Below are positions 367 through 53,200 of a DNA stretch of 64,000 nucleotides, one piece after another. The stretch is from positions 6,386,001 to 6,450,000 of the forward strand of contig OZ038454.1 of the NCBI GenBank assembly GCA_964036195.1, given 5' to 3'. The DNA comes from Sphaerolaimus hirsutus. Lineage: Eukaryota; Nematoda; Chromadorea; Monhysterida; Sphaerolaimidae. The position numbers and the translations under genes are program-made. The notes below the pieces were generated by a model, which saw only the letters and a program-made list of their open reading frames with translations, was not told where the DNA came from and did not search any database. Position 1 is the first letter of the stretch; every line of letters starts with the position of its first letter.

Positions 367-3300
367 GTGAGTGGAGTTTTATTTAACATAAAATCTTGCA
401 GATGTAATGAGAAATCAGAAATTGTAGATCCCAGAAATGAGTATGCCTATGACAGGGCAGGGGTGTCTGGAGAATTGGCAGACTGGCAAATGTATCTGGT
501 GCCACTCCCAGACCCTGCAAAGTACCCTGCAAATTGTCAAATGTCATGTAAAAGGCCCTGAAAGATAGCAAACTCCGTCAACATGACATTTTACTGGTCA
601 TTTTACACAGGGACGTATCCAGGATTTTTGAACGGGGGCTGCTTGTTTACAGAGCACGGTGAATGAGGGGCTCCCCCCCCCACCTAAAATTTTACCCGTA
701 CAGTTACGGAATGGCGCCATGGCGCTGGCGCCATTTGTAGGCGCCATGCAATGGCGCAATTGGCGTTGGCGCCAGTGCCTGAAACTGCTGTAAATGTAAA
801 TACACGTACATTACACAGAGACAGGTACATCATTGGATTGGATTATGGTGCAATTTCAGGGATATGTGTCTATGGAGACTAATATGCTGAAAATATGCTT
901 TGTGTAGAGGGCAAGTAAGTATGCGCTTGCAGACTAAATTTTCACATACACCATCTAAATTTGTACTAAAAGTTGCATCTCTGGGGGTTTTCACGTCTCA
1001 CCCCGGGAAGGGGGAGGCTGCAGCCACCCCTCTGGATACGGGCTTGATTTTACATGACTTTTCAGACTCTGCATGACAATTTACATTTGACAGGGCATTT
1101 TACTGGGTGTGGGGGTACCCCCCATGGAGCACAGGGCAGAATATTGATGGATAGCTGCCCACCTAAACCAAGATGCGACCCACATGAACTGTCCAGGATG
1201 GTCCAGGATGTAATTAGATTCAATGATGGTGCAAAAGATTGTGGCAAAAGAGTGGAGTGAGTCAAATATTTATGTCCATCAGACACCAGTTTGCATAGTC
1301 ACAAGGAAAATGTCAACTCCCCGCACTCAGTGGGTCCCTAACTTTTTGGTTGGCCAACTGCCAACCTTTCAGACACAAGTTCTGGAGTGAGCCTGTTACT
1401 GCATGCCCAATTGGCACTGTCACAAGGATGCAATGGAAAGAGTACTTTACAATGCCATGTGCACTCATTTTTGCAACAAGGTAAATAGTAAGTTGTGCGT
1501 GGATCTGACCAGGGGTCTAGTAGGTGGGGGTTTGTGGGTTTTCCACAAATGTTCCAGCTAGTTACTTGTCTATCCCAGACCCTCCTCAGTTGATCTATCT
1601 ATCACAAGACAGATTAGTTTCTACTGCTGAACACCACCACAAATCACCCACAGGGGTGGGCATCTTCAGTTAATGCTGGAAAAACGCGATAGCTTGAGCT
1701 ACGGTTGAGCTATCACAATGAAAAGTTAACACAATAGAGTAGACTCCATAGGACAACTATTCTGAAGTTTGCAACTCAAACGGCCACATGTTGGGTGAGA
1801 TGTGGAACACACAGTGTTTAGTGTAATTTTGTGACTGGCCGATTTTGATTGGAATTGACCGATTTTGATGCCCTTCGAGTATGTTGGGGTTTGGGGTCGG
1901 GGCTACGACACATTTTTTTTGTTTTCTCGAATAGTCCCCAGTAACGAGATAAGGGGGTTCTATAAAAAGATGGTCGTTTTACATGGCCAATCCAGTCTAT
2001 CGAATTTGAAGGTTAATAAGTCGGCCATTTCTGGGCCGATTTGGATTGTTTAACACTTAAAATGATCGGCATAAGCTGTAGATTCCATTTTTGAAGTCGC
2101 ATTAGAAATGTCTGAATTCCATATGCTGATTTTACCCAGTATTCAAACGCGAAAAATAATTTTTTTATGGACATGCTATCATATATACTCCGGTTACTTT
2201 ACACCTTGCACGCGTGGTTCCCGCTGGAAGTGTGCCAACGATGGTTAACGCGTGCAAGATTCATAAAAAGGATGATAAAATTGATTTTTGTTATGATGTT
2301 ATTCATTAACATATTCACATCGATTACTTTTTTCATCTTTTTACAGAAATCGCATGATTAATAATAATTGGCGCGCTTCCAACACGAGACATAAATCAGT
2401 GCGAGGGCAGAGTATCATGTACGAGTTCATGTATCAAAAGAATGAGTTCATTATATCTTTCCAATCAAAGGTTAAAGCAAGTCAAACTTGTCCCTCCCAT
2501 CCACATAAATCACCACATGAAGAACCATTAGCATTCAAAAAATAACCCGTGATTTATATTTTCGAAAATCACAATAAATATAAATAACCCGTGATTTATA
2601 TATATTTATATTTTTTTCAAATTCTGAGTGATATATTTATATATATTTTTCAATTTCGAAAAAAAAATCACTGAGAAAATCACTCATACTAGATACATTG
2701 TGGTGCAAGTATTGCGCTTCATGATTAAAACATGTAATTTGTGCAAGAGAATTTTGAATTTTGCAAGAGAATTTTATCCTGAAAATCTCTCATCTGCTCA
2801 TGTAAAGCATTATTGAGTTAAAATAGTGTTTGAAGCAGGTGAATATTGTGCCTACACACACTAGTTTTCACCATACTTTTTTGAAAACTGAAATGGCCAA
2901 AAATGGTGACATGTCACCATCCAGTTTTCCACAATAGAACGCTGTAGATGTTACGTTTTCACAAATAGCGTGGATTTCAGTGGGGTTGTTTTGGCAAGTC
3001 ACTAGTTTGCTACTGTGTTTACCTAATGTGAAAACTCAAATGATGACAAATGGTGATATCACCATCACTTAGTCTTCATTAAGCCGGAATTAGAGCTTAG
3101 CGTTGATTCGACATGGAATGACGACGTAAAATGATGTCATGAAATTAATTACACGAGTGTGGATCATCTCTATCTTATAACATACTTTTCTGAAATAAAA
3201 CATAACATTGCATCAAAAATACCTGCTTGATGTCATCAAAAATGATCTACAGTAATTGAAAACTCACTTCACCACTTTTGAAAGCTGGCAACACTTGGTG

Positions 3301-19827: not shown

Positions 19828-19984
19828 GTAACAAGTGGAAATGGAAATTTATTTGCACTCGCGAGAACACGGAAACAAAATTTGTGTCACTTACTGGAAA
19901 ACGGAAAACAGAAAAAAAATTTCACGGAAAATGGGAAGATGTGGGATTATGTGTAGCGGTCAGGATATCATTTGACTGCAAAAG

Positions 19985-20831
19985 ATGAATGTTACATGCG
20001 GGGCGCCAGCGCAGAGGACTGCGACTACCTACCCGCGGCACTGACTACAATAGTCCCACTTCCGGACACTCCGCCCACTCCGCCCATACTGAACGATTGC
20101 TGGTACAAAATGACTTGCCCTGACGTGCAGGAAAGGACACAATCAATATTAGACGTGAGACATGAACAAATTGGCACTTATCTCGGGAGACTGAAGTCAA
20201 TGAAGGGCCAATTTGCATTTTCCGAACTGGGAGTTTGTTCCCCGTCCCTTCTGCTCGCCTGCGCCAGTACGGATCACAGATTTGCGTGGGGAAGCTTCTT
20301 GAATGCATAGTTGTTAAAACGTATTTACTTTGTACTCGAGGAAGAGTAAATACGTTTACGTTTCCTCCGAAAACGTTCCTGTACTCGCTTTTACGTATAC
20401 TTTTTGAAAGTACGCGAGTACAGAAAACATATTTCAGATAGTCTTTTATGTCGATTTTTGAAAGCATAGAAGGAAAAAAATGAGAGAATATTGGGAATAT
20501 GCTAAGAACATTGGGAAAATAGTCGAAAATAAATATATTAGCACATAGGTATCTAGCCAAAATTTGTTTATAATATGCAAAAAATTATGAATATTTGTGA
20601 TTTTGAGTTAAAATTGAGGTGGCATTTCTCAAAAATACTCACCTTTATGTATTCCGGAGGTAAAAGTACGTTTACGTAAAAGTAAAAAAATTTCTGTACT
20701 GAAGGGGTGAGTAAAAATAAATACTTTATGTTTACGTATACTTAGAAAAAAGTTTGGTACTTTTAACAACTCTGCTTGAATGAAAGTGATCCAATAAAGG
20801 TGAAAAAGATCAATGATGCCCTGAGAATGTT
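19985..20831 (+). CDS. Gene 1 exon 14, interrupted by a transposon
   Basis: Acceptor GCAAAAG, donor TT|GTGAGT. Cys-rich unknown domain: ECYMRGASAEDCDYLPAAL, LNDCWYKMTCPDV, IGTYLGRLKSM, CSPSLLLACASTDH, then after the insert DPIKVKKINDALRML. It has no intron where gene 2 has one. The hAT element at 20306-20774 breaks the frame. Confidence 0.65.
20306..20774. mobile_element. 469-bp hAT-type MITE inside exon 14
   Basis: Ends CATAGTTGTTAAAACG and TTTTAACAACTCTG, flanked by a perfect 8-bp duplication CTTGAATG (20298-20305 and 20775-20782). The intact gene 2 exon has one copy at the same codons (about 38749), giving a clean empty site. Confidence 0.9.
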
Positions 20832-23897: not shown

Positions 23898-24096
23898 GTA
23901 CCACTCCCAAACCCTGTAAAGTACCCTGCAAAGTGTCAAATGTCATGCAAAGTGTCAAAAGTCATGTAAAATGCTCTGAAAGATAGCAAACTTCGTCAAT
24001 GTGAAATTTTACTGTTCATTTTACATGACTTTTCAGACTCTGCATGACATTTTACATGTAACATGGCATTTTACTGGGTCTGGGAGTACCCCCCAG
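23898..24096. repeat. 199-bp intron-like inverted-repeat element in exon 19 (gene 1)
   Basis: Starts GTACCACTCCCAAACCCTGT and ends GGGTCTGGGAGTACCCCCCAG, its inverse. Removing it as a GT-AG intron joins MYL to GALGRILM in frame. Internal TGTAAAAT/ATTTTACA repeats. Confidence 0.75.
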
Positions 24097-35200: not shown

Positions 35201-38200
35201 AAAAATAAAACAGCAGTAAACACGCAGTTACATCCGCTTCGAATACCACCAACCGATTTGGTACAATGGGCTACACGTTTTAAGAAGGACAACATACTTG
35301 GAACTGATTATGATTTGTTTTCCGCTATGCATTATTGTGAGTTACCTGAAGATAGAGGTGGGTATTTTCGTTTACAGAGTTGTGCCGAATATTTGTTGTT
35401 ATTGAATATCGATTTCATTATTTCAATGCCTCCAGAAACAGGTGGACATAAAATGGCAAGAATTATCACAGCATTTTTTTCAAAGTCTTTTTTCAAAGAT
35501 TTTTTAAACAATATTTTTTATTGAAAAACAAACATCTAATCCGTTTTGTAGAACTTCAGCCAAATTTTTGTACATATGCATCAAGTGTTTTGCAATTTTT
35601 GTAAGCATGCAATTTCACATGCACATTACCAATGGTGGTTGTCTTCATTGGTTTCGAGACATTTTTAGTGTAAAAGCATTCATTTGTTCATGCTATTGTG
35701 TAATAATATGCTGTGATATGATGGTGTAAAATATATTATCCAGCTAATGTGCTTCCACATACTTCTACAGTGTGAAACATCACTGTCAATGTATTAGTCT
35801 TCTTTTATACCTTATTTAAGCACACCTTTCCATGCTGAACTTGACTTAAGTCAAGAAAAATCAACAAAAGGCAATATATGTAAGTAAGCAAAAGCAAGTC
35901 AACATAAAATGGGTATTGTTGACAGAAATCACCACTTATAATGCTCTCCCATGGCTCCACAGAGACATTCTATGTGTAGTAGTTGATTTAACTACATATC
36001 GCCACATCACACCACAAAGTACTGTCACTTGTCTGACATACCTGTATAAATATGTTCACTCATGTTTAACTGTTTATATTTGAGAGATTTTGAAGAAGAA
36101 AAAAAACAGTTTTATTTTAAAAATGGGTTCACTGAAAAAAGTGTTTTTTTTTCATCCTATTGACCTTAAACTTGTCCACACCACAGCACCAAGCATTTAC
36201 AACAGGAATGCACCCAATGTTTATGATCTAAAACCAAATGCAGACAAAGCTATTGGGTGGCATGACAAGGTCACCACGATCAGAGATGAAATGCATGGAC
36301 TCGCAACACTTTTCGATGGTGATAAACAGTAAAAATGGTTTGAAAAAATTCTTCCCAATATTTGAGCTCCATCAATTTCACTGAAAATCAGTAATCAAAA
36401 AAACTAGAAGCCCAAACAAAGGTGTAGAAAAAGTGTTGCTTGACCATGTACAACCACAACAACACAAAACTACCATATTACATTGACTGGGGTGACCTAG
36501 GTGTGGGCCAAGCGGGTGGCCTTTCCAGAACTGATATATACAAGTTAAATGAGGTATACAACTGCTCAGAAGGTAAATAATATGATTGCCTTTCATGTTC
36601 CAGTGTGGCACTTTCATGCATACATAACAAAATAATGCATGTGATATTTTAAATCACAGAAATCCTTGACCAGTGGATAGATGGAATATTCAGGAGTGGT
36701 GGGTCTATGAATCAACCAGGTAATGTCTTTTACATTGCTTCCAACTTGCAAACTACAGTACCATAAGATGTCATGAACATTTTGTGACTGCATAACGTAT
36801 GGCAACACTGGTACAAGATATCCCCCATACCAGGTTGGGGGGGGGGGAGGGGGGGGTTACCCCACCCCAAAATCCGCCAGCTATCTATCTATCCCGGGCA
36901 AAATTTTTGGCTACTATCCCCTAACCCCCCCCCCCCCAATCGTCCTGCTATCTATCTATCTGGAGCGATTTTTGAAATTTTTTCGCTCAAAATCGCTAAT
37001 TTTTGTACTTTTATAGTTTTTCGCCTCCAAAATCGCTAGTTCATGTTCATTATCCCCTATTTTGGCTATATATGTGCTTATATACTTATTTTTAGCCATT
37101 TTTCACCAACTTTTAGCGATTTGTTCCGCTTTTCTTCCTTCTATACCTCGGAAAACCCTATATATTGAACCCCCGCGAACCCCCCCCCCCAAAACCCCCC
37201 CAAATTTTTTTTCAGCTTTCTATCCCTCCGGAGGAGCGATTTGCTATCTATATGAACCCTCGCGGGGGTCCAAATCTACAAAACCGCTGCCCCACACGAT
37301 TGGTTGCAAAAATCAAGGGTACATTCAATGAGCACTAAGGGAGGCTCAGATAGGTATAGAAAGTCTTCCACCAAACCTTTTCTGTATAACGTTAAGTGTA
37401 AAGTAGAAGTAGAATCATCAAAAAAAGTCAACTGATGCCTGTTCAATGGGCCGCTCAATTGTTTTAAAGTGCCCCCTGGCTAAAAGGGTAAAATATAACT
37501 TTGTGCAGCTTCGAGCAAGCCGAAGTGTGCGGACAAAGCGAGCTGCCACGCCCAAGGCGCATTGACTTGGCGCGACTGCGCGAAGCGGGCCACCATCCTG
37601 GCCATCGAGTGCCCCTACACGTGCAGAACGTGCACAGATGAGTGCTGTCGAATGCTACTGGGCTCTCGCATTTGGATCGGGTCTGGGTATGGTACAAAAT
37701 GATATTTAAAAAAAAATGGGTCTAGGGCTAACATATATTTACACTTGGGTAAATATACCAGTCAGGTTACAGCACTATGTATTTATCTGACGTTATACCA
37801 TCAGATAATAACGAATTTGTATGGATGCAAATTCCAAGAATGTAAACCAAAAAACAGTTCGATGGCAACAAATATATTATCAATTATTTTACAATAGCTG
37901 CACGCGGTAGTTATCGCTGGCTCGCTGCCAACGTGAACAGCGCAAGCATACCGTCACGTCACCATCACTGGAGTATAGAATAAAGGACTGAAATGTCAAG
38001 TCATAAATACCCGGCCAGGTAACGAAGCCAATATTACACTGGGGGGATTGTAAACAAAGTCGACCGCAAAAGATGAGTGCTACATGCGAGACGCCAGCAC
38101 AGAGGACTGCGATTACGTACCAGCTGCACTAACTACATTAATCCCACTTCCGGACACTCCGCCCACGCCGCCCATACTGAACGATTGCTGGTACAAAATG

Positions 38201-41200
38201 ACCTGCCCCGATGTTGAAGAAACACCAGGTGCCAATCCCAGACCATGTAACGCGTAAAGTAAAGTGTCAAATGTCATGTCAAATGTAAAGTATGAGTGGA
38301 AGTGGAAGTGTAAAGTCAATTGTCATGAAAATTCATGTTAACTGTGTATCCAAATCTTTTTGTATCCTAATCATGTTTTTGCAGGCAAGTGTTATTGCAA
38401 AACATAAGATTTAGATACAAAAACATAAGGTCTGAACAAAAACATAAGGTCTGAATACAAAAAAAATAAAATTTGGATACAAGATTTACACTTACTTTAA
38501 CTTTTTCATGACAATTGACACTTTACATGACATCTTACATGACATTTGGCACTTTACTTTACACTTTACAGGGTCTGGAACTGCCCCCAGGACCTACCTT
38601 AGATCGAATACACGAAGACATTGGCAATTATCTAGGTAGACTGAAGTCAATGAATGGCCAATTTGCATTTTCTGAACTGGGGGTTTGTTCCCCGTCCCTT
38701 CTGCTCGCCTGCGCCAGTACTGACCACAGATTTTCATGGGGAAGCTTCTTGAATGAAAATGATCCAATAAAGGTGAAAAAGATCAACGATGCCCTGAGAA
38801 TGTTGTGAGTCCTTCCCAAGTAAAAGCTTAGTTCAGGTTAACCATGCAGCTGCAACCAAGTCTGAATTAAGACACCGTATTACCTCGAATTAACCACCCC
38901 CCCACTTGAATTAACCCTCCCCTCGAATTACCCCTCCCCCTCAAAATGGGCTGGGAAAATAATAACTCCCCCCCCCTCGAAATACCCCCCAAATACAGTG
39001 TAAACAGCATGTACACAACAAATACCACAATGTGTGAACTGTATTATGCAGAACACACGTTAAAACTGATGACTGAGTGACGTTAGGGAAAGGTTTATGT
39101 GTATATACACTTGTATATGCCTATAAACACTCATACGTCTCTGACAATGTTGTATTTTTCTATGTCTGAGTATGGCAAATTTCATAAAATTTCTGGCAAA
39201 ATAATATACCCCCCCCCCTAGAATTAACCCCCCCTCAAAATTTGCTGGCGAAATAATAAACCCCCATGGGGGTATTTCGGGGTAATACGGTATTTACATT
39301 CTAGAAGTGTGATAAATCACGTAATGTGTTCTCCCTCAAACCATCACATGAAAAATGTTTCCTTTCAATTAAAAATAAAATTTTCTAAATCGTCACAGAT
39401 ACTGCCTCAACTTATACCATGAAACATGCCGTCCCGAGCATAGGGGATTATCTGGGTAGCATTTTAGGGGGGGGGGGGGGTCCGCCAAAGTTTGCATGGC
39501 TATAACTCTGCAACCACTAGGCGAAATTTGACGAAAATTTAACATAATGTTTCAGGTCGGGGCGGTATTGAAAATCGAAATCAACTTTCTACGACCCCCT
39601 TGACCCGAGATAGGGTGGGTCTGAAAAAAGACACATTTTTTGATTTTTTTTCGCTGTCGCCCCAAACACGCGAATATTGAATGTCAATAACTCCGTTTTT
39701 TCACGGCCAATTTTGTTCATTTAACTTCTAAAATTAAGAAAAATCTTTGGAGATTCCATATTTGAGGTAATTTTGGTGATGTACAATTGCGGTCATATCG
39801 ATTTGATCCAATTTCTGAATGCCAAATTTTGAGCAAATTTTTGTATTTGAACATGCTATCATATACTTTAGATGACCAGAACTCATATAAAACAAAAATG
39901 AGTTCAATATCTCTTTCCAATCAAAAGTTATAGCGCATAAAACTTACCCTCCCATCCACATAAATAACTGCATGAAGAACAAAGCATGCAACTTCAAAAC
40001 TCCATATCTCGATCATTTCTCAGCCGATTTTCACCAACAACACTTAAAATGATCAGAATGACATGGAGATATCATTTTTATTCCAAGATTATTTGTGTAT
40101 TGTATAAGTTCTCCCGTACAAGAAAACAATGATAACTCTTGAATGAAATTATCATAATGAAAATTTATACAAATAAACTAATGATAAAAACGATATCCCC
40201 ATGTTATTCTGATCATTTTAAGTGTTCGTTGGTGAAAATCGGCTGAGAAATGGTCGAGATATGGAGTTTTGAAGTTGCATGCTTTGTTCTTCATGCAGTT
40301 ATTTAGGTATGTGGATGGGAGGGAAAGTTTGATGCGCTATAACTTTTGATTGGAAAGAGATATTGAACTCATTTTCGTTTGTTATGAGTTCTCATTGTCT
40401 AAAGTATATGATAGCATGTTCAAATAAAAAAATTTGCTCAAAATTTGGCATTCAGAAATTGGGTCAAATCGTATGACCGCAATTGTACATCACCAAAATG
40501 ACCTCAAAAATGGAATCTCCAAAGATTTTTCTTCATTTTAGAAGTTTAATGAATCAAATTGGCTGTGAACTAATGGAGTTATTGACATTCAAAGTTTTCG
40601 TGTTCAAGGCGACACCCGAAAAAATCGAAAAATGTGCTTTTTTCAGACCCACCCTATCTCGGGTCAGGGGGGTCGTAGAAAGTCGAATTCGATTTTCAAT
40701 ACCGCCCCGACCTGAAACATCATTATGTTAAATTTTCGTCAAATTTCGCCAAGTGGTTGCAGAGTTATAGCCATGCTAACTTTGGCGGACCCCCCCCCCC
40801 CCCTAAAATGCTACCCCGAAAATCCCCTATGGTCCCGAGTCTTCTGTAAAGGCGTACCCATGGTAAGAATCGATACACAAATACGTACCGTATTTATTCA
40901 AATAATTCCCCGGGTTATTTTTTTGGTCAGACCTTTTTGGGCCTCCACATGCTAGTTGACACGCCATCTCAGAGTAAACTCAGAGTCAACTAGTGTTCAG
41001 TTGACTTTTTCACTCACACAATTGGATTTTTTTATGTTAGCATATGCGTAAACCTCTATTTTAGGTATTTACCGTATTACCTCCAATATAAGGCATCCCT
41101 CTAATATAAGGTACCCTCTAATATAAGGTATAACTTTTGGCTATTTTGAACGCGACGAAATAAATATAAGGTACCCTCTAATATAAGGCATACCTCTAAT

Positions 41201-50200: not shown

Positions 50201-53200
50201 TGGGGCAACGAAAAATGTATTTTTTTGGCCTGCGACTTGTCACTTGGGGCGTGATCAAAAGCTGTTTCTACCACCCACTGATACTAGATGACACTACCGA
50301 CAATCTAGTCAACATGAGGAGAAACTCGGAACAGTATATATTTTGATACGCTTCAGTGAAATTCATTGTTCCTGGCTTCCGGTCGCCACCTACCTATCAG
50401 TTGCAGTCTCCGCCTCTGCCCAAAGATAAGTTAGAGTGGAATGTGCATTTGGCCACCCAGAAAGTCACAACACTGTGCCGACAACTTCAAAGGCGTCCAC
50501 ACACCGCGCCGCGGCATTTTAGAGTGAAAATGTGAAATTCCCCTCTCACCTTGTGCCACGTGGAATGTAGTTTACATAGGGGCTAAAAATGACTTAGCTG
50601 TTCTTTAATTAAATTAGAGCACAAAAGTTAATTGGGCGTAGGGAAACGAAAATGTGCAGAGCACTACAACTGCAAAACCATGGGAAACTCGGTCTGCCAG
50701 TGTAGCGGCGTCGATCTTGCTGTGCAGTGCTCTATCAGGGTGTAGCGCAGCTCAGTGGACGGCTGCGCATTGCCGTGCAGGCCCCGTAGACTACCAAAAA
50801 TTGCCAAAATACCTGAGGGGGTTTTATTCGAGATATTAGTTAACAAAATACTTTGTAGTTTACGTTACGTGAATTGTTATTGCATTTGGTTGTCTAAAAA
50901 TTTGTGGGGTGGCATTTTCCCATCGTTAAAATGCTCTGACATATCCGTGCACAGGGAGCCGACATGCACGCCGGGTAGTGAAAATGGAGGTCGGCTGCGG
51001 AAATACATCATGTGACCAGGGCAGCCAAACACAAAAGATATTGTACACAATCCTATTGTTTGCCTTTGTGTTCGCCGCCAGCCCGCTTTGAGGTCATGGG
51101 CGGGCATACCACTGATACTGACATACACCTCTGGCAACACGCAGATTCGAACGGCGCTTGTTGGGGCGGGTGGAACTTTTAAACCCATTTTCGTGCTGTG
51201 CTATGCACGCGTTGTGGAATGCAAATGCATGCAATTCATGTGGCATATTGCCAGCGCAGAGTAATTATAAAATAAGTGTGTTCGCAGTTTGCGGTTGGCG
51301 CGTGGTGTAATGCCAGCACGGAGTGATTATAAGATAAGTGTGCCGCAGTTTGCGGCTGGCGCATGGCGTAATTGTAGGCTTATTATGCCATGCAAATCAT
51401 GGGTAGTTCTAGCACTGATATTTTGGGGTGGAATTATTGAATTTTCCAATTACACGACCAGCAAACAAAATGGTCAAATGAAAGAAACTGTAATGTACCA
51501 ATTAATTATCATTAATTGTCATTTCTTCTAATAGAACAGCACCTCCAATAGAATGGCAGGTAAAAAGTTTATTTAAAAAATAGAACAGCGATATTCTATT
51601 AGAAGAAATGCGGTACATACATTTGATTAGAACAATAAGCGACAACAATAGCAAGAAAACAATAGATAGTACAACAAATGACTATCGGCTGCGGCGGGAA
51701 ACAATAAGCCAAGTGGCAGCGCGGGGGTGGGCGCACACCTGGCGTGCATGTCAGCTCGCTGTGCATACCCGGCGCGCATGGTGGTGCCCGGTGTGCATGG
51801 GGGCCCGGTGTGCATGGAGTGGCGGCCGCCATGCACACTGGGCAGCGAAAAATGCATGCCGGGTAACCATGCACAGCGGGTAAAAATGCACAGAGAGTCT
51901 GACCCATAGAAATTACATAGTAAGAGTGCCAAAACACAAAAATATTTGACCAATTGGTGATGAGAACATCCAGGGTGTTCAGAACAATGATTCAGGGATT
52001 GTTTTCACGTGTGATTTTGTTTGAATAAATGCCCTGATCGTAAAATGTCGTTCATATCTCACGAAAACACTATGTTCAGATGAAAATTGTGTGAAAAAAG
52101 TTTGATGAAAGAAATATAATGGCACCTCGAATATAATGGCAGGCAAAAAAGTTGATGAACAAAATATAACGGCACCATTCTATTAGAAAAAAAATATTTA
52201 AAGAAATATATAGAAATATATATATTTATTATTATTTATTTTTTCATCAGACAGTTTTGAGGGGGAACAATGCAACGGGGGGAGTTATTTAAGTAGTGAA
52301 ATCATTTTCACTAGGTATTTTACATTTCTTTTGAACACAAGTGCACAATTTCACAAGTGTTAGGTGCTTGGGAAGCATTTGAAACCTGCCATAATTGAAC
52401 TTAACACAATTCACCCAACTACTGCAATTAATGTATTAATATGCCCATAGCGCATAAACACTTTTGACGAATGGTACTCCTCTGGTGCACTGCTCAAGGA
52501 AGCAGTTACATGTCTAGTGAACGAAATTGATTTCAACAAAGCATGCAAACACTCACTGTTGGTCATAATGGCAATTTTATTTGAGAAGTGAATGGAGTTT
52601 TATTTGACATAAAATCATCCAGATGTAATGAGAAATCAGAAATTGTAGATCCCAGAAATGAGTATGCTTATGACAGGGCAGGGGTGTCTGGAGCATTGGC
52701 AGACTGGCAAATGTATCTGGTACCACTCCCAGACCCTGCAGAGTACCCTGTAAAATGTAAAATGTCAAAGATGTCAACAGTCAAGTAAAATGCCCTGAAA
52801 AAATGGCAAACTTCATCAACGTGACATTTTACTGGTCATTTTACATGACTTTTCAGACTTTGCATGACATTTTACAGGGTATTCTACAGGGTGCTGGAGT
52901 GCACCTCAGGGCGCACAGGGCAGAATATTGATGGATAGCTGGCCACCTAAACCAAGATGTGACCTACATGAACTGTCCAGGATGGTCCAGGATGTAATTA
53001 GATTCAATGATGGTGCGAAAGATTGTGGCAAAAGAGTGGAGTGAGTATAATCTTTATGTCTATCAGACACCAGTTTTCATTATCACATAGGAAAATGTCA
53101 ACCCCCCCCCCCCCCACTCAGTGTGACCGTCACTTTTTGGTTGGTTAAATGCCAACCTTACAGACACAAGTTCTGGAGTGAGCCTGTAACTCGATGCCAA

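Follow-up and report, generated by a model that had tools for sequence, protein, structure and literature searches.

A high-copy MITE family targeting CWG in Sphaerolaimus hirsutus, probably spliced as GT-AG and, unusually, as GT-TG introns

We propose that the insert splitting a coding exon of gene 2, in a stretch of 64,000 nucleotides from the nematode Sphaerolaimus hirsutus (GenBank assembly GCA_964036195.1, contig OZ038454.1, positions 6,386,001 to 6,450,000; hereafter the window), belongs to a high-copy introner family that targets CWG. On the sequences compared here, its sense copies are probably spliced as GT-AG introns at CAG targets and, unusually, as GT-TG introns at CTG targets (probability about 0.72). 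A transposase would cut and duplicate CWG, so that a sense insertion reads CWG-GTGCC...GCCCC-CWG. In the RNA, pairing of the inverted arms would form a hairpin that joins the two ends of the insert and may thereby steer splicing. The spliceosome would cut at the GT of the element and where the duplicated target ends, restoring in the mRNA the exact sequence that preceded the insertion. CAG targets (gene 2, gene 3, OSCP1 exon 1 and an LRR gene) would thus yield ordinary GT-AG introns, GT coming from the element and AG from the target, and CTG targets (OSCP1 exon 2, AMPK-gamma, CHGN and an EndoIII/MutY-like gene) would yield GT-TG introns that are tolerated in this organism.

Positions 38229-38590 of the window are made up of a 359-bp MITE followed by CAG, one of the two copies of a 3-bp target duplication, the junctions in gene 2 reading ...GAAACAC(CAG)/GTGCCAATCCCAGACC...GGTCTGGAACTGCCCC(CAG)/GACCTACC (see table for coordinates). 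The preliminary description had reported an insert with inverted terminal repeats that starts with GT and ends with AG; its boundaries were confirmed, as were the inverted arms, which are 68 nt long and 81% complementary. The insert has the features that define a MITE: it is short, has terminal inverted repeats and a target-site duplication, and lacks coding capacity, no stop-to-stop ORF of at least 80 amino acids lying wholly within it. A donor-like GTGAGT is found at 38805, directly after the 3' part of the exon. The predicted fold of the insert RNA has an energy of -120.5 kcal/mol (z -10.0; 0 of 100 shuffled sequences fold as well), and the predicted hairpin leaves 9 and 12 bases unpaired at the two ends, which meet at its foot. 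An ACAG lies 19 nt before the end of the insert, as in many copies, and its use would add 19 nt to the message; ordinary scanning could prefer it as acceptor, and it sits within the predicted stem.

Excision of 38229-38590 gives CPDVEETPGPTLDRIHEDIGNYLGRL, where the counterpart in gene 1, in one piece, is CPDVQERTQSILDVRHEQIGTYLGRL; with the insert left in place, the frame runs eight codons more and then meets a stop within the element (CPDVEETPGANPRPCNA, stop). This length-neutral excision had been taken as a signature of an introner. The restored exon does match gene 1 and two further paralogs (L014 and L015) without gain or loss, but this says nothing on splicing, because any element taken out along with one copy of its target leaves the pre-insertion sequence.

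Table. Features of the window, insertion sites in its gene family, and copies in conserved exons of contig C1. Number ranges are positions in the window; L numbers are loci of the genome search.
Feature	Location	Strand or orientation	Target triplet and remarks
Left CAG copy of the 3-bp target duplication	38226..38228	+	Last three nucleotides of the gene 2 exon before the insert
MITE/introner copy	38229..38587	+ (sense)	Start GTGCCAATCCCAGACC, end GGTCTGGAACTGCCCC; imperfect terminal inverted repeats
Right CAG copy of the target duplication	38588..38590	+	Would supply the AG of the putative 3' splice site
Gene 2 split coding exon, 5' part	38072..38228 (start approximate)	+	DECYMRDASTEDCDY...CPDVEETPG
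Gene 2 split coding exon, 3' part	38591..38804	+	PTLDRIHEDIGNYLGRL...NDALRML
Gene 1 homologous exon	19984..20305	+	Continuous where gene 2 carries its insert; a different MITE splits it further 3'
Unit A, upstream-exon insertion	499..1126	+	CTG left, CATG right; right end CCCCCCATG; AG missing; enlarged by unrelated internal sequence
Unit B of the tandem gene, upstream-exon insertion	23898..24096	+	Exon end ...CAAATGTATCTG, insert GTACCACTCCC...GAGTACCCCCCAG, exon resumes GGAGCACTGGGCAG; GT-AG; CTG left, CAG right
Unit C, same upstream insertion	52720..52909	+	CTG left, CAG right; right end GCACCTCAG
Gene 2 and gene 3 insertion	One common site	sense	CAG
L023 and L024 insertion	One common site	sense	CTG
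L021 insertion	Own site	antisense	At CAG; GG-AG ends
L028 insertion	Own site	antisense	At CAG; GG-AG ends
OSCP1 exon 1	L067	sense	CAG; Pfam
OSCP1 exon 2	L066	sense	CTG; Pfam
CHGN	L084 (C1 about 5421100)	sense	CTG; Pfam
LRR gene (LRR_6)	L052	sense	CAG; Pfam
CBS, AMPK-gamma by PDB match	L093 (C1 about 5773600)	sense	CTG; Pfam and PDB
EndoIII/MutY-like gene	L059	sense	CTG; C1 about 3426394; PDB matches, weak

The genome-wide search for the terminal repeats that the preliminary description had proposed revealed a large family. In the assembly (348 Mb, 762 contigs), the 23-base left terminus occurs exactly 3151 times, and the reversed control does not occur; CWG precedes it in 2601 of the 3151 cases (CAG 1418, CTG 1183). 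Many near-identical dispersed copies are thus present, as in introner families, and similarity ends at or near exon edges, running from CWG to CWG in the window gene family and in six junctions of contig C1 (see below). On C1, 70 loci gave 72 copy entries, a few of which represent one copy in two overlapping loci. CWG stands on the left of 61 of these 72 entries. The search for right ends demanded the same triplet as on the left; such an end was found for 49 of the 61 and for 53 of all 72 entries, two of which repeat the flanks of another, leaving 51 distinct copies. A longer target duplication, or a CTG/CAG belonging to the terminal repeat, was hinted at by the distant copies L003, L006 and L008; it was dropped because CAG/CAG or CTG/CTG flanks predominate among the 30 C1 copies whose right end could be seen. 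Loci L003-L008 form a subfamily with termini GTGCCAATCCCAAGCCCTGTAAAGTG, several copies of which are flanked by CTG at one end and by CAG at the opposite end. The 5'-CWG-3' target duplication that characterizes NuwaI is present in the family, from which we infer mobilization by a CWG-targeting NuwaI (Harbinger-like) transposase.

The insert of gene 2 is not unique to that gene, since gene 3 (C6:6454076, just beyond the window) is interrupted at the identical position by the same insert (89% identity by genome search; a gapped alignment matches at 324 of 337 aligned positions); most simply, this insertion would predate the split of the two genes. A genome search with the gene 1 exon as protein query gave 25 matches, and 11 exons of the family were read through, with inserts removed where present (L030 and L033-L037 were left out). 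In five of the 11 (gene 1, L014, L015, L016, L017), the element is absent from the stretch that contains the sites. The other six have one copy each, at four sites that span roughly 20 codons in a variable stretch, a pattern that indicates repeated insertion. The alternative that gene 1 lost an intron and gene 2 gained none was considered and rejected: the same family interrupts paralogs at different sites. Frames are intact in L021 and L028 despite the antisense insertions. A Pfam scan of the tested exon of this gene family gave no hit.

Gene 1 had been presented as the continuous comparison. It is uninterrupted at the gene 2 site, but its exon is split further 3' by a different MITE (window 20306-20774), which has an 8-bp duplication (CTTGAATG) and ends CATAGTTGTTAAAA...TTTTAACAACTCTG and is judged hAT-like from these two features. 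L016 and L017 likewise contain similar elements within coding sequence. Gene 1 may be in decay, and some members of the family may be dying genes. L014 and L015, which are intact and uninterrupted across the exon read, are better controls. It was also observed that nucleotide identity between genes 1 and 2 is 50-67% around the insertion (about 38200-38228 and 38591-38640), against 80-100% in all remaining 30-base windows of this exon, a pattern that might arise if the insert blocked gene conversion among the tandem copies. The L023-L024 pair (dS 0.54, dN 0.11) was considered as a case of long tolerance of a CTG copy and dropped: similarity between the two elements does not exceed that of other pairs (0.89 versus 0.87-0.89 with a gap-tolerant aligner), and the two genes may have received separate insertions at one site.

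Copies in conserved coding exons were sought on C1. The 51 distinct copies gave 137 junction-spanning ORFs on both strands, 119 of which were scanned against Pfam (E<=0.01). Five of the 119 had a hit (OSCP1 twice, CHGN, LRR_6 and CBS), and all five were in the sense orientation. The C1 AMPK-gamma aligns without a gap across its junction with the human chain (E 5e-31). L085 (CAG, sense) gave a weak VWD match with an E value of 0.011, above the cut-off. L059 had 29 PDB matches (E 0.06-0.66), every one named EndoIII, MutY or a like repair enzyme and none significant alone; its excision restores, across the junction, a C-x6-C-x2-C-x5-C spacing that we take to be the mark of the EndoIII/MutY iron-sulphur loop. 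A provisional SMYD label for L055 was rejected, as it found no support in Pfam or PDB. Homology thus supports six C1 junctions in five genes, all six sense, two at CAG and four at CTG. The presence of OSCP1, CHGN and AMPK-gamma fits an animal genome. OSCP1, which has two inserts with the CTG copy at about C1:3592140, is otherwise intact and has ordinary splice sites in the part examined; three of its ordinary introns, read by eye in L066, are GT-AG (GTTGGT..CACACAG, GTGAAT..TTTCAG and GTGAGT..CATCCAG).

The expectation that copies would lie in genes, in frame and at GT-AG junctions was borne out in part: they are found in coding exons and in frame, but the GT-AG rule fits only the CAG copies, in which GT and AG are both in place. 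CTG sense copies start with GT and end with TG, and as they have no AG at that position, exact removal of the four homology-supported exonic ones can only give GT-TG. Retention of the CTG copies would break many genes. It is possible that a CTG copy is spliced to a downstream AG with a small loss of residues, and the first AG downstream of the insert is in frame in all four CTG cases (at 3, 18, 18 and 18 nt). We nevertheless consider it unlikely that the CAG copies alone are exact GT-AG introners and that all CTG copies join the GT of the element to the next AG of the exon, losing a few codons and never using TG. OSCP1 would lose a conserved MTMACK inside its Pfam Oscp1 match, AMPK-gamma would lose VVFDTQ (VVFDTS in the human chain, VIFDTQ in the paralog on contig C2), and the C-x6-C of the EndoIII-like loop would be shortened to C-x5-C. 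CAG copies, too, are followed by an in-frame AG (18 nt in L052, 15 nt in L067), which may simply reflect codon usage. The genome-wide excess of CAG over CTG copies is in the direction expected if CTG were slightly disfavoured, a point in favour of this alternative.

Splicing of both classes was also weighed against the improbable reading that the elements inserted recently, are not spliced and disrupt alleles or paralogs that are turning into pseudogenes. Exonic copies have well-matched arms (0.88-0.95 in six of seven, compared with a median of 0.77 over 48 copies) and may be young, hAT-like MITEs also lie in coding exons of the window gene family, and AMPK-gamma has an uninterrupted paralog on C2 (dS 0.96, dN 0.156 relative to the C1 gene). 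For two other genes the searches gave no such spare copy: all five OSCP1 matches fell inside C1:3591434-3593074, with no other locus, and the EndoIII-like loop had a single matching place in the genome; the otherwise intact state of OSCP1 argues in the same direction. The exon of genes 2 and 3 has been kept open while the insert is common to both, with a dS of 0.167, a dN of 0.067 and a dN/dS of 0.40 (p 0.02), values that come from one exon and that gene conversion could affect.

The orientation of the inserts bears on this reading, and on removal from DNA as well. The six homology-supported C1 junctions are all sense (one-sided p 0.016 under equal odds of the two orientations), which favours removal from RNA; when events of the window gene family are included, 8 are sense and 2 antisense, so the orientation is not absolute. 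Programmed excision at the DNA level between the two CWG copies, as for ciliate IESs, with the assembly representing the germline form, would restore frames whatever the orientation or target, including those of the antisense copies in L021 and L028; it predicts random orientation, contrary to the six C1 junctions, and a mostly somatic assembly would be expected to lack most inserts, so that we regard it as very improbable. Codon usage was tried, in two versions, as a further call of the coding strand. In the second version, stop-free best frames among 43 copies gave 11 sense and 7 antisense for CAG, and 10 sense and 2 antisense for CTG, and L052 and L059 were misassigned; both versions were rejected as support for orientation, known frames being ranked poorly. 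Finally, it is hardly credible that the gene 2 MITE landed in a pre-existing intron since lost from gene 1: several paralogs are indeed interrupted within the same short stretch, but at four sites and in both orientations, each bounded by the element's own ends with no other intron sequence flanking it, and none of the 11 exons read has a non-MITE intron where gene 2 carries its insert. In conclusion, the introner reading of the preliminary description is in part supported, by the family itself, its CWG target, the in-frame exonic copies and the selection on the exon of genes 2 and 3, but not by length neutrality, and its GT-AG rule is confined to CAG copies.

The window contains a second insertion of the family, in an upstream exon of three tandem units (A, B and C in the table), which looks like a single shared event. 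Where CTG on the left faces CAG on the right, either the acceptor CTG changed to CAG or the codon of the exon changed. Possibly, a TG acceptor has here matured into AG over time; taken alone, this case proves nothing.

U2AF1 reads the AG at the 3' splice site. Two U2AF1 loci were found in the genome, one on contig C14 and a more divergent one on C16 (C16:15183258-15191469, L109-L112); the hits on C14 are mirrored on a small contig, C720, which is perhaps the other haplotype. The exons of the C16 locus are open and have GT and AG edges by eye, and its protein matches only U2AF 23/35 kDa chains in PDB at E<=0.001. In the UHM exons, it is identical to the C14 protein at 63 of 86 positions and to an approximate human ZRSR2 sequence at 27 of 87, which identifies it, by similarity, as a U2AF1 paralog, closer to U2AF1, and not as ZRSR2. 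U2AF2 has one strong locus, and two further hits, 32-34% identical, were taken as other RRM proteins. A link between the second U2AF1 and the use of TG acceptors is only suggestive. We tentatively extend the proposal, at somewhat less than even odds, to the following: one CWG-targeting MITE family would make both GT-AG and GT-TG introns, set only by the CWG that is hit; the host spliceosome, perhaps through the divergent second U2AF1, would accept TG acceptors genome-wide; and the upstream-exon insertion would have begun with a TG acceptor and since matured to AG.

With thousands of element copies, of which the sense exonic ones should behave as introns, this genome is suited to the study of intron birth, and the origin of introns is directly testable in one family and one genome with both empty and filled paralog sites. 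The same element at CAG or at CTG is a natural experiment on the need of the spliceosome for a 3' AG, for which the duplicated U2AF1 is a candidate adaptor. If GT-TG splicing is true, gene models that assume GT-AG break at such sites in this genome.

Several components of this proposal are known from other systems: splice sites shared between element and target in introners, GT-TG introners, and TG acceptors in humans. No CWG-target family with both GT-AG and GT-TG candidates was found in the open-licence literature, as far as the portions of it consulted extend. The introners of diverse eukaryotes are non-autonomous DNA transposons, many of them with terminal inverted repeats and short target duplications; some families provide one splice site from the element and recruit the other from the duplication, leaving mRNA length mostly unchanged, and copy numbers range from 5 to more than 2,000 per genome (Gozashti et al., 2022; PMC9860276). 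The S. hirsutus copies likewise have terminal inverted repeats and a short target duplication; a putative donor GT would come from the element and the putative acceptor from the duplication, again with no change in mRNA length. They differ in that the CWG target gives both GT-AG and GT-TG candidate introns; the passages of that paper used here note GC and GA 5' ends as rare and do not mention TG 3' ends (PMC9860276). In the green alga Micromonas, introner classes IE-B and IE-D are GT-TG repeat introns with 25 and 6 members, 31 in total (PMC3879977). Unlike these, a single MITE family would here produce GT-AG and GT-TG candidates by choice of target, with 1183 CTG copies, exonic or not.

NuwaI transposons, of the PHIS (PIF/Harbinger-ISL2EU-Spy) superfamily, duplicate a CWG target and occur mainly in animals (PMC4482050); NuwaI is defined together with its transposase, whereas the copies described here are short and non-autonomous and are likened to it by their CWG target. 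In humans, TG 3' splice sites of U2-type introns are alternative sites reported in 36 genes (PMC2374985, PMC4176328); no link with transposons is apparent in the parts of these reports relied on here, whereas the TG candidates of S. hirsutus come with a MITE. Introner elements of the dinoflagellate parasite Amoebophrya have inverted repeats, direct repeats of 3-5 nt at exon edges and non-canonical ends, with hairpins proposed to join the exon boundaries (PMC7789003). Inverted repeats and short direct repeats at exon edges are likewise found here, along with candidate non-canonical ends and a predicted hairpin; the direct repeats of Amoebophrya vary, whereas one target, CWG, prevails in S. hirsutus. 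In the tunicate Fritillaria borealis, 95% of introns break the GT/AG rule, the commonest odd ends being AG/AC and AG/AT, and divergent paralogs of U2AF1 and U2AF2 read the non-canonical 3' ends (PMC13326754). In contrast to that genome, the OSCP1 introns read here are GT-AG, and only U2AF1, not U2AF2, has a second locus. The two systems resemble each other in that candidate unusual 3' ends accompany a divergent extra U2AF1, and in that a 3-bp motif, YAY in F. borealis (PMC13326754) and CWG here, often precedes the 5' end and is repeated as the last three bases of the intron.
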